NCBI GenBank assembly: GCA_900167895.1
Contig: FUZR01000002.1
Coordinates: 558,001-622,000, forward strand
Direction of reading: 5' to 3'
DNA: 64,000 nucleotides
From: Bacteroidales bacterium WCE2004
Lineage (GTDB): Bacteria; Bacteroidota; Bacteroidia; Bacteroidales; UBA932
Shown: positions 51,344 to 64,000 of the stretch, piece by piece
Position numbering within the stretch: the first letter of the stretch is position 1
Layout of the letters: every line of letters starts with the position of its first letter
Position numbers and translations under genes: made by a program
Notes under the pieces: model-generated
Seen by the model: only the letters and a program-made list of their open reading frames with translations
Database searches by the model: none
Told to the model about the DNA's origin: nothing

Positions 51344-52327
51344 TTACTCCCACTCGATGGTTCCGGTCGGCTTCGGCGTGAGGTCGTAGAGCACGCGGTT
51401 GACGCCCGGCACTTCCGTCACGATGCGCTGCGTGATGTGGTGAAGCAGCTTGTAGGGAATCTCCTCGATGGTGGCGGTCATCGCGTCGCGGGTGTTCACG
51501 GCACGGATGATGACCGGCCAGTCCCAGCTCCGCTTGTCGTTCTTCACGCCCGTGGACTTGTAGTCCGGCACGATGGTGAAATACTGCCACACCTTGCCCT
51601 CCAGGCCATTCTTGGCGAACTCTTCGCGCAGGATCGCGTCGCTCTCGCGGAGCGCCTCCAGGCGGTCGCGGGTGATGGCGCCGGTGCAGCGCACGCCCAG
51701 GCCGGGGCCGGGGAACGGCTGGCGGTAGACCATATTGTCGGGCAGGCCGAGCTCCTTGCCGACCACGCGCACCTCATCCTTGAACAGGAGCTTGATCGGC
51801 TCCACGAGTTCGAACTGAAGGTCCTCGGGCAGGCCGCCCACATTGTGGTGGCTCTTGACGGGGCCGGATTCGACGATGTCCGGATAGATCGTTCCCTGGG
51901 CCAGGAAGCTGATCCCTTCCAGCTTGCGGGCCTCCTCTTCGAACACGCGGATGAATTCCGCGCCGATGATCTTGCGCTTCTGCTCCGGATCCGCCACGCC
52001 GGCCAGCTTGTCCAGGAAGCGGTCCGTGGCGTCTACATACACCAGGTTGGCGTCGAGCTCGTCGCGGAACACGCGCACCACCTGCTCAGGCTCGCCCTTG
52101 CGGAGAAGTCCGTGGTTGACGTGCACGGACACCAGCTGCTTGCCGACCGCCTTGATAAGCAGGGCGGCCACGACCGACGAATCCACGCCGCCGGACAGGG
52201 CCAGCAGCACCTTCTTGTCGCCGATCTGCGCACGCAGCTCGCGGATCTGTTCTTCGATGAATTTCTGGGCCAATGCCGGAGTCGTGATACGCTCCATATT
52301 CGCGGGCCGAACGTTACCTGTTGACAT
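51344..52327 (-). CDS. Stand-alone GMP synthase ATP-pyrophosphatase (no glutaminase domain)
   Basis: The 327-residue protein corresponds to the synthetase and dimerisation parts of GuaA: PP-loop [12 protein letters not shown] (45-50), [52 protein letters not shown] and the C-terminal [18 protein letters not shown]. It has no N-terminal amidotransferase. It would make GMP from XMP and ATP with free ammonia or with glutaminase help in trans, like the two-subunit archaeal enzyme. It lies 36 bases downstream of a complete guaA, from which it has diverged strongly. An internal start at 52297 is possible. The true substrate could differ from XMP. Confidence 0.85.
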
Positions 52328-52363
52328 AAGTAATTTTGTTATAATGAGTTAATATCCTTTCTT

Positions 52364-55472
<3,109 letters not shown>

Positions 55473-59559: not shown

Positions 59560-60537
59560 CTATCGGCTTGATTCCGCATCTTTCCGCTTGCGGTACATCT
59601 GATAGGTGTTATAGACGTTGTGCCAGATGCTGTAGAAGCCGCCGGCCACGGAAACGACGGGCGTGAGGAAGGTGTAGCCCATCCAGATGGCAAAGACGGT
59701 GTTCTTCTGGCCGAGGGCCTGCCCGGCGGAGATGGGGCACTTGTAGCGGCGGCCGATCCAGCGGCCGAGCGCGAACTGCAGGATACAGGCGAGCAGCGAG
59801 GCGACGCCGATCTCCCAGAGCACCCGGGGGCCGGCGTCGTTCTGCACGATGGCGCGCGTGCTCATCAGGATGGCGAGCGTCAGCGAGACCGCCCAGATGT
59901 AGAACGAAAGGTTGGGGAATCTGAGCAGCCAGGCGTGGAATTTCGGCAGCAGGTAGCGCACCAGCCAGGCCGTCAGGCACGGCAGGATGAGCAGCGGGAA
60001 CACCTTGGCGAGGATCTTGGCAAAGGCCTCGTAGAAGGTCAGGCCCGCCACCGGATGGATGAGCGGGACCATCAGCGGCACGAGCACCGACACCGCCAGG
60101 TTGATCAGCACCGTGTAGGTGACCACGCCGGCCATGTTGCCGCCCAGCTTGCCCGTCACCACGGCGCAGGCCGTGGCCGTCGGGCAGATCAGGCACAGCA
60201 TCGCCGCCTCGACGCCGTGGCGCAGCGGCAGCTCCGGGCAGAAATACAGCAGCAGCGACAGGCCGACGAACAGCCCGCACTGCACCAGCAGCAGCCAGCC
60301 CATCCAGCGGTGCGGCCGCATCTGGTGCGGCTCGATCTTGCAGAAACTCAGGAACAGCATCACGAAGAGCAGCGAAGGCTGCAGCTCGCGGACAATCTGT
60401 TCCAGCACCGGCCCGGCGGGATGCAGGGCCGGGATGGCATGGTAGCCCAGATACAGGGAGGCGCCCACAATCATGCCGATGATGAGCGCCCAGTCCCTGA
60501 GGAATTTGACTAAAGTATAGCGGTAGGTCCCCATCAC
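59560..60537 (-). CDS. Bile acid:sodium symporter (BASS) family transporter
   Basis: The 325-residue inner-membrane protein has 9-10 hydrophobic helices. BASS-like features include LQPSLLFVMLFLSFCKIEP, the crossing motif ICPTATACAVVTGKLGGN (helix 4 region) and PISAGQALGQKNTVFAIWMGY near the second crossover. Family members move bile acids or other organic acids with Na+; the substrate here is unknown. Its start overlaps the purD-folD stop by 4 bases (ATGA), so it belongs to the purine operon, an unusual setting that raises the possibility of a folate- or purine-related substrate. Confidence 0.82.
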   Translation of the reverse strand: MMGTYRYTLVKFLRDWALIIGMIVGASLYLGYHAIPALHPAGPVLEQIVRELQPSLLFVMLFLSFCKIEPHQMRPHRWMGWLLLVQCGLFVGLSLLLYFCPELPLRHGVEAAMLCLICPTATACAVVTGKLGGNMAGVVTYTVLINLAVSVLVPLMVPLIHPVAGLTFYEAFAKILAKVFPLLILPCLTAWLVRYLLPKFHAWLLRFPNLSFYIWAVSLTLAILMSTRAIVQNDAGPRVLWEIGVASLLACILQFALGRWIGRRYKCPISAGQALGQKNTVFAIWMGYTFLTPVVSVAGGFYSIWHNVYNTYQMYRKRKDAESSR

Positions 60538-62642
60538 TTCCCCATCCGGGCCAGGAAAGCCTCCACCGTGTTCTCCATCAGCATCGCGATGGTCATCGGC
60601 CCGACGCCGCCCGGCACGGGCGTGATCCAGGAAGCGCGCAGGCGGGCGCTGACGAAGTCGACGTCGCCGCAGAGCTTGCCGTCGTCGGTGCGGTTGATGC
60701 CCACGTCGATGACCACGGCCCCGGGCTTGACCATGTCGCCCGTGACCATGTTCGGCCGGCCGACGGCCACCACGAGCACATCAGCCTGGAGCGTCATCGC
60801 CTTGAGGTCCTTGGTGCGCGAATGCGCGATGACCACAGTGGCGTTGCGGTCCAGCAGGAGCTTCGCCACCGGCTTGCCGACGATGTTGCTGCGGCCCACG
60901 ACCACAGCGGTCTTGCCGTTGAGGTCGATGCCGCTCTCGTCGATCAGGCGGAGGATACCCTTCGGCGTGCACGGGATGGTGCAGGGACGGCCGAGCCAGA
61001 GGTCGGAGACGTTGCGCGGATGGAATCCGTCCACGTCCTTCTCCTGGGCGATGGCGTCGATCACGCGCTCCTCGTTGATCTGCTTGGGCAGCGGGAGCTG
61101 CACGAGGATGCCGTCCACCTCCGGATCGCGGTTCAGGTCATCGATCATCTTGAGGAGGGCCTCCTCCGTGGCATCCTCGGCCATCGTGATCAGGCGGGAA
61201 TTCATCCCCACGTAGATCGCGGACTTGACCTTGTTGCGCACGTACACCTGGCTCGCGGGGTTGTTGCCCACGATGATCACGGCCAGCGAAGGCTTGCGGC
61301 CGTATTTGACTTCCAGCTTGGCCACGCGGTCGCGCAGCCCGTCCTTGATGGAGGCGGCGAGCGCCTTGCCGTCCAGGATCTGGCCGTCAAGGGCCCAGTG
61401 GGCGATGTCGCGGCGATGGAAGAGATTGTCACACTGGATCTTGGAGATCTCGCCGTAGACCTTGCGGTAGGCGGCGCGGATGTCCTTGCCCTCGGCCACG
61501 ACCATCATCACGCGGCCGCCGGCCGTCAGCAGGCGGTCGCCGTCGCGCTTCGTGCCCATGTGGTAGACCTTGGCGTCGACCTGGTCTACGCCGAGGATCT
61601 CGGCGCCCTTGTCGTAGGACCCGGGATAGCCCTTGGAGGCCAGCACGACGCCGAGCGTCACGGCCTTGCGCCAGACGGGCTCCGCCGCCGGCTTGCCGCT
61701 GGCCACGGCCAGGAAAATATCATAGATGTCGCTGTCCAGCAGCGGCAGCACGACTTCGGTCTCGGGATCGCCGAAACGGGCGTTGAACTCGATCACCTTG
61801 ATGCCGTCGGGGGTCTTCATCAGGCCGCCGTAGAGCACGCCGGAGAGCGGGCAGCCCTCGGCGACCATCGCCCTGGCGGTCGCCTCGAGGATCTCTTTCT
61901 GCGCAAAGGCGCGGTCCTCCTCCGTGATGAACGGGAGGCCCGTGTAGGCGCCCATGCCGCCGGTGTTCGGGCCCTTGTCGCCGTCGAAGGCGCGCTTGTG
62001 GTCCTGCGAGAGCGGCATCGGATAGACCTTCTCGCCGTCCACGAAGGCCATGAAGGAGAATTCAGGACCGGTCAGGAAGTCCTCGACCACCACGCGGCCC
62101 TTGCCGAAGGCCTCGTCCAGCAGCATGCTGCGGAGCGCGGCTTCGGCCTCCGCCGCATCGGCGGCGATCACTACGCCCTTGCCGGCGGCCAGGCCGTCGT
62201 ATTTGAGCACGGCCGGGAACGGCCGGGCGTTGACATAGTCGAGCGCCTCCTGGAAATCGTCGAAGCTGCGGTAGCCCGCCGTCGGGATGCCGTATTTGTC
62301 CATCAGGACCTTGGCGAACTCCTTGCTGCTCTCGATGCGCGTGGCAGCCTTCGTGTGGCCGAAGATGGCGAGGCCCGCGGCGCGGAAGGCGTCCACGACG
62401 CCGACCGACAGCGCGGCCTCGGGGCCGACGACCGTCAGGTCGATCCCCTGCTCCTGCGCAAAGGCGAGCAGGCCTTTGACGTCCGTATCCTTGATGGGGA
62501 CGCACTCCGCCTGCGCGGCGATGCCGGCGTTGCCGGGAGCGCAATAGATCTTCGCAACCTGCGGGGAGCGGCTGAGCGCATCCACGATGGCGTGGCAGCG
62601 TCCGCCGCCACCGACCACGAGCACTTTCTTGTCCTGGGCCAT
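60534..62642 (-). CDS. PurD-FolD fusion: GAR synthetase plus methylene-THF dehydrogenase/cyclohydrolase
   Basis: One uninterrupted frame of 702 residues joins two full enzymes. Residues 1 to ~419 are GAR synthetase (PurD): VLVVGGGGRCHAI, the ATP-grasp core KYDGLAAGKGVVIA, GPNTGGMGAY, IEFNARFGDPETE, and the end FHRRDIAHWAL. Residues ~421-702 are FolD, full length: QILDGKALAASI, SQVYVRNK (Y467, K471), DGILVQLPLP, the NADP site VVGRSNIVGKP and TPVPGGVGPMT. There is virtually no linker. PurD makes GAR; FolD makes the 10-formyl-THF used by later steps, including PurH, whose gene ends 6 bases upstream. The first motif has Cys where PurD usually has Glu (GGREHA). Confidence 0.95.
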   Translation of the reverse strand: MAQDKKVLVVGGGGRCHAIVDALSRSPQVAKIYCAPGNAGIAAQAECVPIKDTDVKGLLAFAQEQGIDLTVVGPEAALSVGVVDAFRAAGLAIFGHTKAATRIESSKEFAKVLMDKYGIPTAGYRSFDDFQEALDYVNARPFPAVLKYDGLAAGKGVVIAADAAEAEAALRSMLLDEAFGKGRVVVEDFLTGPEFSFMAFVDGEKVYPMPLSQDHKRAFDGDKGPNTGGMGAYTGLPFITEEDRAFAQKEILEATARAMVAEGCPLSGVLYGGLMKTPDGIKVIEFNARFGDPETEVVLPLLDSDIYDIFLAVASGKPAAEPVWRKAVTLGVVLASKGYPGSYDKGAEILGVDQVDAKVYHMGTKRDGDRLLTAGGRVMMVVAEGKDIRAAYRKVYGEISKIQCDNLFHRRDIAHWALDGQILDGKALAASIKDGLRDRVAKLEVKYGRKPSLAVIIVGNNPASQVYVRNKVKSAIYVGMNSRLITMAEDATEEALLKMIDDLNRDPEVDGILVQLPLPKQINEERVIDAIAQEKDVDGFHPRNVSDLWLGRPCTIPCTPKGILRLIDESGIDLNGKTAVVVGRSNIVGKPVAKLLLDRNATVVIAHSRTKDLKAMTLQADVLVVAVGRPNMVTGDMVKPGAVVIDVGINRTDDGKLCGDVDFVSARLRASWITPVPGGVGPMTIAMLMENTVEAFLARMGK

Positions 62643-62648
62643 ATCCTA

Positions 62649-64000
62649 TTAATGCTTGAAATGTCTGATTCCGGTAAAGAGCATCGTGATGCCGAGCTCG
62701 TCGGCCTTCTTGATGGCATCCTCGTCGCGGATGCTGCCGCCCGGCTGGACGATGGCCGTCACGCCGTACTGCGCGGCCAGCGCCACGGTGTCGTCGAAGG
62801 GCAGGAAGCCGTCGGAAGCCAGGATGAGACCTTCGGTGAATCCGGCCGCCTGGGCCTCCTTGAGGGCGATCTCAGCGGAGCCGACGCGGTTGGTCTGGCC
62901 GGCGCCCACACCGATCGTGTGGTTGTCGCGGACCACGGCGATGGCGTTGGACTTGATGTGCTTGACGATGCGCCAGCCGAAGTCGAGGTCGGCCAGCTGG
63001 GCCGCCGTCGGCTTGACCTTCGTCACGCACATCTCCTCGCTGACGGTCTCCATCGCGGTGTCGAGCTGCTGGGCGAGCATACCGCCGTTGACGCCGACAT
63101 ACTGCATCGGGGCCTGCGCCTCGCGCTGCATCGGCACCTCCAGCACGCGGAGGTTCTTCTTGGTGGAGAGGATCTCCAGCGCCTCCGGCGTGAAGGACGG
63201 GGCGATCACGATCTCGAGGAAGATGGGCTTCATCCCGCGCGCCACCTCGGCGGTGAGCTCGCGGTTCACGCCCACGATGCCGCCGTAGATGCTGACCTTG
63301 TCAGCCTCATAGGCGGCCTGCCAGGCCTCCTCGATGTTGGCGCCCACGGCCGCGCCGCAGGGGTTCATATGCTTGAGCGCCACGCAGAACGGCGCGTCGA
63401 AGTCGCGCAGCACGTTCAGGGCGGCGTTGGCGTCCTGGATGTTGTTGTAGGAGAGCTCCTTGCCCTGGATCTGCTTCGCGAAAGCGAGGGAATAGGGCGC
63501 CGGCTCCATCGCCGCATAGAACTTCGCGGCCTGGTGGGGGTTCTCGCCGTAGCGGAGCGGCTGCTTGAGGTCGTACTCCAGGAAGAGCTTCTCGTTCAGG
63601 CCGGCCTGCTTGCGCATCCACGAAGAGATGCACATATCATATTCGGCCGTGTGGGTGTAGGCCTTGGCGGAGAGCTGCAGGCGCGTCTGGTCGGAGGTCT
63701 TGCCGCTGGTGCGGATCTCGTCCAGCACGCGGTCGTAGTCGGCCGGATCGCAGACGATGGTCACGTCGCGCCAGTTCTTGGCGGCGCTGCGCACCATCGA
63801 GGGGCCGCCGATGTCGATGTTCTCGATGGCATCCTCCATCGAGACACCCTCCTTGGCGATGGTCTGGCGGAAAGGATAGAGGTTCACGCACACGAGGTCG
63901 ATCGTGCCGATCCCCTGCTCCTCCAGCGTGGCCATGTGGGCCGGCACGTCACGACGTGCCAGGATGCCGCCGTGCACCTTCGGGTGCAGGGTCTTGACGC
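62649..64000 (-). CDS. purH: Bifunctional AICAR formyltransferase/IMP cyclohydrolase (5' end outside window)
   Basis: The frame is open to the window edge, starting in VKTLHPKVHGGIL, so about the first 60-70 residues are missing. The remaining part contains the end of the MGS-like IMP cyclohydrolase domain (DLVCVNLYPF, ENIDIGGPSMVRSAAKN) and the whole AICAR transformylase domain (RYGENPHQ, ALKHMNPCGAAVG, the KPTAAQLADLDFGWRIVKH block, SNAIAVV, GVGAGQTNRV, SDGFLPFDD, PGGSIRDEDAIKKAD). PurH performs the last two steps to IMP using 10-formyl-THF. The stop is 6 bases before the start of purD-folD, so the cofactor-supplying enzyme is translated from the same mRNA. Confidence 0.95.
   Translation of the reverse strand, partial: VKTLHPKVHGGILARRDVPAHMATLEEQGIGTIDLVCVNLYPFRQTIAKEGVSMEDAIENIDIGGPSMVRSAAKNWRDVTIVCDPADYDRVLDEIRTSGKTSDQTRLQLSAKAYTHTAEYDMCISSWMRKQAGLNEKLFLEYDLKQPLRYGENPHQAAKFYAAMEPAPYSLAFAKQIQGKELSYNNIQDANAALNVLRDFDAPFCVALKHMNPCGAAVGANIEEAWQAAYEADKVSIYGGIVGVNRELTAEVARGMKPIFLEIVIAPSFTPEALEILSTKKNLRVLEVPMQREAQAPMQYVGVNGGMLAQQLDTAMETVSEEMCVTKVKPTAAQLADLDFGWRIVKHIKSNAIAVVRDNHTIGVGAGQTNRVGSAEIALKEAQAAGFTEGLILASDGFLPFDDTVALAAQYGVTAIVQPGGSIRDEDAIKKADELGITMLFTGIRHFKH

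Follow-up and report, generated by a model that had tools for sequence, protein, structure and literature searches.

A joined purD::folD frame in the purine operon of gut and rumen Bacteroidales and its predicted bifunctional product

Whether one gene can encode two complete enzymes of different pathways, PurD (glycinamide ribonucleotide (GAR) synthetase) and FolD (methylene-tetrahydrofolate (THF) dehydrogenase/methenyl-THF cyclohydrolase), and by what route and to what effect they would have been joined, is the question raised by purD::folD, a gene of Bacteroidales bacterium WCE2004. The gene lies in a stretch of 64,000 nucleotides (assembly GCA_900167895.1, contig FUZR01000002.1, positions 558,001 to 622,000), which was analysed as a whole and is referred to here as the window. 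With a probability of roughly 0.9, we consider purD::folD to encode a genuine bifunctional enzyme, as predicted from its sequence.

The gene is a single open reading frame (ORF) on the minus strand, starting with an ATG at 62642 and ending with a stop codon at 60534–60536; a sequence-only reading had given this interval without a strand, and a plus-strand translation there is meaningless. That reading claimed one frame of 702 residues holding two complete enzymes with essentially no linker and a junction near residue 420 (base 61382). The ORF and its matches in Pfam and NCBIfam confirm both points and place the junction at residues 418–421 (bases 61391–61380). Five Pfam matches, all well over the cut-off, follow one another along the protein: GARS_N (residues 6–104), GARS_A (105–295), GARS_C (330–415), THF_DHG_CYH (PF00763, 423–538) and THF_DHG_CYH_C (PF02882, 541–697); besides these PurD and FolD domains, the scan gave a weak CPSase_L_D2 match overlapping the ATP-grasp part. 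The NCBIfam purD model TIGR00877 scored 488 bits over residues 6–417 (curated cut-off 288), and FolD models scored up to 397.5 bits over residues 420–695, with several species-level FolD models remaining below their own cut-offs. The best solved relative of the PurD half is 2yrw (455 bits), and in alignments the solved PurD and FolD structures cover almost all of the respective halves. In the AlphaFold model of the fusion (79-row alignment; mean predicted local distance difference test score (pLDDT) 93.1, predicted template modelling score (pTM) 0.69), both halves are predicted to be well folded and their mutual placement is not fixed.

The PurD motifs QDHKR, GPNTGGMG, LAAGKGV and NARFGDPE are all present in the window protein, as are the FolD motifs PASxxYVxxK, VQLPLP and KDVDGFH, located by alignment with solved FolDs; the latter three we take to be the positions of the catalytic Tyr/Lys, Gln and Asp of FolD. 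The distinct complete fused proteins number 128, of which 28 come from fetched loci and the other 100 from database entries alone. Twelve motif patterns distributed over both halves each occur in 126–128 of them; this range holds for each of the four PurD motifs, and the three FolD motifs occur in 127, 128 and 127, respectively. The earlier statement that all main motifs are present holds for both halves except at the N-terminus of PurD, where the motif, presumably GGREHA as a rule, reads GGRCHA (residues 11–18; 62589–62612). In the clade of the window, the median ratio of nonsynonymous to synonymous substitution rates (dN/dS; 190 pairs, 20 distinct loci) is 0.162 for PurD and 0.160 for FolD, i.e. 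both halves are under equal purifying selection.

The lineage with the fusion consists of gut and rumen Bacteroidales. When the FolD half was used for a protein search (8000 candidates scored; best 120 of 4812 hits listed), 113 of these best 120 hits carried PurD in the same chain (three partially), and the other seven, five of which were rescanned, had FolD domains without PurD, two being named as plant proteins. In 79 loci from named public genomes, one frame crosses the junction in 29, including one with a TAG (L013), one with a frame break (L034) and some cut at contig ends, whereas purD and folD are in tandem with a stop between them in 40; in the rest, folD is nearby on the opposite strand (3) or does not occur in the locus (7, including one truncated by a contig edge). 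After removal of duplicates and addition of further genomes, 133 distinct loci had a PurD at least 60% identical to that of the window: 33 fused, 35 tandem in frame, 47 tandem in another frame, 15 apart and 3 on opposite strands, with the window's own locus possibly counted up to three times (L001, L002 and L091). Among the matches listed for 400 sampled genomes of the genus, of which 376 gave any match, the joined frame was present in at least 27, incompletely in four (TAG in G213, frame break in G332, contig edge in G300 and G390), and among the matches listed for the family it also occurs in at least one other genus (G080). The organism probably belongs to the genus of Candidatus Cryptobacteroides avistercoris, as G364, a genome of the window's genus, and the named locus L022 agree in match coordinates and frame length. 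In evenly drawn order-wide (393) and phylum-wide (392) samples of genomes at least 85% complete, no full-length unbroken match beyond that of the window's genome was found among the matches listed, near the top of which a fused protein would be expected.

The fusion gene is the only PurD and the only FolD of the window genome: it is the sole match to PF02882, and it matches PF01071 with 246 bits while two other frames stay below the cut-off. A separate folD was also looked for in the other genomes, and complete FolD matches lie in the PurD-joined frame in all 28 fused genomes. Exactly one match was found in 27 of these; G414 has two fused copies (L108 and one on contig C73, sharing 86% and 85% identity with the window protein) and a 34-aa contig-edge FolD fragment, and the two copies represent either a duplication or a mixed bin. 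The sequence-only reading had allowed for an assembly or sequencing error, or for a pseudogene with working copies elsewhere. The metagenomic or uncultured origin of the named records and the broken PurD half of two related loci would be compatible with this, but 128 distinct complete fused proteins, the lack of any complete unjoined FolD in all 28 fused genomes and the dN/dS of 0.16 in both halves make it extremely improbable; assembly error and duplicate copies were both rejected as explanations, since the joined frame recurs in many genomes and a complete FolD standing by itself occurs in none of the 28.

The context of the gene also bears on its function. In L144, a locus extending past the end of the window, purE, purL, purC, purF, purM, purN, purH and purD::folD follow one another on one strand, and each pur gene is matched by an NCBIfam model (purC 1 bit below the cut-off, the others above it; the whole purH, TIGR00355, 669 bits). 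The gene purN, two genes upstream of the fusion, immediately precedes purH, the next gene upstream, and purM and purN are separate genes rather than domains of the fusion chain. The stop codon of purH at 62649 agrees with the earlier observation that this gene ends 6 bases before the fusion. Formate-THF ligase (FTHFS, PF01268) gave no match in the window genome, which is listed as 95% complete, nor in the fusion protein; FolD is thus the only recognised route to 10-formyl-THF in this genome. FTHFS was likewise found in none of the 28 fused genomes, versus 5 of 28 unfused relatives that we chose from the genus (one of the five being partial at a contig edge). 10-Formyl-THF is used by PurN and PurH and is hydrolysed by PurU.

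The PurD half would convert phosphoribosylamine, glycine and ATP to GAR, and the FolD half would convert 5,10-methylene-THF to methenyl-THF and then to 10-formyl-THF; GAR and 10-formyl-THF are both substrates of PurN, and the latter would also feed PurH. Two independently folded enzymes would thereby be held on one chain at a fixed ratio of 1:1, and the fusion would tie the only recognised source of 10-formyl-THF to the expression of the purine operon and put FolD near its users. We infer both activities, the 1:1 ratio and any benefit; with the two substrates of PurN made by one chain, co-location could be beneficial. The earlier proposal that a fusion in the purine operon links one-carbon supply to purine synthesis is supported by the intact state of both halves and by their being the sole PurD and FolD, and the link is stronger than first stated, as purN is the immediate upstream neighbour of purH and the search for formate-THF ligase gave no match.

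Several observations weigh against a genuine bifunctional enzyme with this role: i) all 29 named fusion records are uncultured or metagenome-assembled, and the fused chain is known from genes alone; ii) the PurD half is broken by an in-frame TAG in L013/G213 (approximately 6523–6525 in L013; also in L109) and by a frame break near residue 82 in L034/G332, the broken halves of L013 and L034 reflecting a broken gene, an assembly error or stop read-through; iii) the GGRCHA motif departs from GGREHA, though it is not specific to the fusion and is not treated as disqualifying the protein from PurD membership; iv) PurT and PurU are also present in the window genome, with which GAR formylation from formate is possible without PurN; and v) no more than 14 of the 28 fused genomes reach 90% completeness with contamination of 5% or less, so that gene absences are weaker in the other fused genomes. 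As to the third point, 108 of the 119 distinct fused sequences carry GGRCHA, and so do 15 of the 112 distinct unfused sequences, the position being variable in the lineage, and the change from GGREHA was rejected as a marker of the fusion because unfused relatives have it too. As to the fourth, PurT draws on formate instead of 10-formyl-THF, which gives a second way to formylate GAR besides PurN.

The junction itself indicates how the frame may have formed. Relatives display a series from overlapping tandem genes, through in-frame tandem genes with a single stop (e.g. L112 and L115) and a fusion with the folD start Met (P0045), to the fusion without stop or start seen in the window, which has HWALDGQILDGK at the junction. 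The in-frame tandem of L112 reads ...H-C-A-F-E-stop-I-M-G-N-I-I-D-G-K, and one substitution of the stop would give a fused frame. A single stop separates 25 of the 35 distinct in-frame pairs, with folD within 12 nt after it in 21. P0045 reads ...H-Y-A-L-D-Y-H-M-A-N-I-I-D-G-K, the stop having been replaced and the old start Met of folD kept, and some other fusions have the same length with both stop and Met replaced. The window's clade reads ...H-W-A-L-D-G-Q-I-L-D-G-K, three codons shorter and with both stop and start gone; overall, linker length among the fusions ranges from -2 to +5 residues. The sequences suggest a likely route in which folD first became the gene next after purD, then shared its reading frame with one stop between them, and was finally fused, i.e. 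the gene would have originated at the 3' end of the pur operon by loss of the stop between adjoining purD and folD. Since the folD start is gone, FolD is presumably produced only as part of PurD in the window's clade. A separate FolD start inside the fusion was considered and rejected: no in-frame ATG, GTG or TTG occurs within 20 codons on either side of the window junction (a GTG follows at +21), and such a start is not conserved across 22 distinct clade junctions, though it is possible in those bearing a GTG three codons before (8) or three codons after (2) the junction. In the unfused loci L111–L120 and L166–L181, in which folD stands in frame right after the single purD stop (the 21 distinct cases above), read-through of that stop would give the fusion product.

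The number of fusion events lies between one and about four, and independent origins are not claimed. On the PurD tree four changes are needed, one of them forced by well-supported branches, and on the concatenated tree four are needed and two forced. In the latter, 31 of 35 fused rows fall in one clade (Shimodaira-Hasegawa-like approximate likelihood ratio test (SH-aLRT) support 86), with L024/L060, L027 and P0114 outside, and all 31 rows of this main clade are fused, loci with folD apart having been left off the tree. The range is kept because a single origin is not rejected by the approximately unbiased (AU) tests, either when all 35 fused rows are included (p = 0.062) or when the long rows P0114 and L063 are dropped (p = 0.44); constraining L024/L060 with the main clade even raised the likelihood (AU p = 0.62). 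Differing junction lengths may reflect separate events or later insertions and deletions, and P0048, without a linker, groups with P0045, which has a 3-residue linker and the kept Met. A hint of separate events comes from the gene downstream, which encodes an SBF-like membrane protein: it is missing behind six fused loci (L024, L034, L060, L027, L122 and L020).

Because of the tandem relatives, the first cause of the fusion appears to be that adjacent genes lost the stop between them. Whether linkage was then of any benefit is a separate matter, and we give a little under even odds to a neutral fusion, in which chance loss of the stop between adjacent, co-transcribed genes was tolerated and drifted to fixation. 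The tandem arrangement in 40 of the 79 named loci and the single stop in most of the distinct in-frame pairs favour it, as does the high G+C content at third codon positions of the fused loci (median 0.88 versus 0.66–0.68), although these loci belong mostly to one clade with duplicates included, and as a property tied to the fusion the high value is confounded by shared ancestry. A further precedent is at hand in the same bacteria. Fmt, the methionyl-tRNA formyltransferase and another user of 10-formyl-THF, shares one fused frame of 803 aa, outside the window, with an LptF/LptG permease of unrelated function (G000:C1:776450–778858; L194 948–3359, minus strand). This single frame is present in 78 of 80 genomes (79 of the genus and one of another genus) whether or not PurD and FolD are fused, the match in the other two being split over contigs or partial, and it warns that fusion need not mean channelling. 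Neutrality is opposed by the persistence of the fusion in the main clade down to about 65–75% identity to the window, by the strong purifying selection on both halves where measured, and by the fused state of every row of that clade on a tree from which loci with folD apart were left off.

A selected channelling enzyme, which would hand GAR and 10-formyl-THF to a docked PurN and 10-formyl-THF to PurH and so limit loss by back-reduction in an anaerobe, is in our judgement unlikely. It draws on the presence of PurN, PurH and the fusion in one operon and on FolD being the only recognised source of 10-formyl-THF. In the available text of one study, PAICS, an enzyme of purine synthesis, co-precipitates with human MTHFD1, whose activities include the dehydrogenase/cyclohydrolase; the argument given for this contact is that formyl-THF is drawn off before it is reduced (PMC9035706). 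In Escherichia coli, according to the part of another study at hand, folate and purine enzymes make inter-pathway contacts in a split yellow fluorescent protein assay, PurD being among the most interactive (PMC12583656). By analogy, these contacts make a benefit of co-location in the fusion plausible without showing it. On the other side, FolD is a peripheral member of the E. coli folate cluster, and no PurD-FolD contact is named in that same portion of the study (PMC12583656). AlphaFold gives the two halves no fixed arrangement, so that a rigid inter-domain interface is not supported, the linker varies in length, the PurD and FolD steps are not consecutive, and the joined frame occurs in only the at least 27 of 400 genus genomes mentioned above, among the matches listed. 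The channelling or PurD-FolD-PurH complex suggested by the sequence-only reading is not supported so far, given the pTM, the non-consecutive steps and the tandem relatives. More speculative still, and slightly less probable, is a two-substrate feeder, in which PurN and PurH would dock on PurD-FolD as a minimal bacterial purinosome in anaerobes without formate-THF ligase; if it were true, the series from separate genes to fusion within the genus would let the gain from fusion be measured. As there is no sign of a fixed interface and the linkers vary in length, the simplest model is that of two enzymes on one chain.

The features of the window are listed in the table. The SBF-like gene, probably the last gene of the pur operon, immediately follows folD in 23 of the 29 fused loci, and in none of the 74 tandem loci, that are distinct and testable (42 of 50 versus 0 of 76 with duplicates included). 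Elsewhere in the window, two adjacent GuaA genes (51344–53944, minus strand) encode a full GMP synthase of 526 aa and a 327-aa copy retaining only the ATP-PPase and C-terminal parts, without the glutamine amidotransferase domain; the pair adjoins guaB at 53937–55415.

Table. Coordinates in the window of purD::folD, its parts and the adjacent genes
Feature	Position	Strand	Basis or remark
purD::folD fusion gene, 702 aa	60534..62642	minus	single ORF; Pfam + NCBIfam
PurD (GAR synthetase) half, residues 6-417	61392..62627	minus	GARS_N, GARS_A (ATP-grasp), GARS_C
Junction, residues 418-421, no linker	61380..61391	minus	
FolD (methylene-THF dehydrogenase/methenyl-THF cyclohydrolase) half, residues 420-699	60546..61385	minus	PF00763 + PF02882
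purH, 3' part (5' end beyond window end)	62649..64000	minus	stop 6 bases before fusion start
SBF-like membrane protein gene	59560..60537	minus	weak PF01758 match; start overlaps fusion stop (TGATG)

The source names of six fused proteins (P0006, P0026, P0031, P0040, P0044 and P0093) give PurD only, so metabolic reconstructions based on such names may call these bacteria FolD-less. No description of a PurD-FolD fusion was found among the matches listed in the open-licence PubMed Central literature. Stand-alone bacterial PurD (TIGR00877) and FolD have the same domains and motifs as the respective halves but are encoded by two genes, often in tandem with a stop between them in close relatives. 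In MTHFD1 (C1-THF synthase), the FolD part is N-terminal and its partner is formate-THF ligase. In the window fusion, by contrast, FolD occupies the C-terminal half and is joined to PurD; with the formate-THF ligase domain (PF01268) missing from the fusion protein and unmatched in the genome, the fusion is not of the MTHFD1 type. The two are alike in that a FolD domain in a larger enzyme supplies, or in the fusion would supply, 10-formyl-THF to purine synthesis, as far as the accessible text on MTHFD1 describes it (PMC9035706). Eukaryotic GART (GARS-AIRS-GART, i.e. PurD-PurM-PurN), a chain of which, 2qk4, is among the solved relatives of the PurD half, is likewise a multifunctional enzyme of purine synthesis with a PurD domain, as the excerpted source states (PMC10912719). 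The partners in GART are the purine-pathway steps PurM and PurN, whereas that in the window fusion is a folate enzyme, and the fusion chain, being without PurM and PurN domains in Pfam, is not of the GART type. The genes hisNB and hisIE are also lineage-restricted mergers of pathway genes, according to the part of the account consulted (PMC1963479), but they join steps of one pathway, whereas PurD-FolD joins two (purine and folate one-carbon). PurD-FolD thus joins neighbouring metabolic genes in an apparently undescribed pairing, with an unusually complete set of intermediates, and its close relatives, with the two genes apart, in tandem, in frame behind one stop or fused, form a natural experiment on whether joined enzymes alter flux or only tidy expression.

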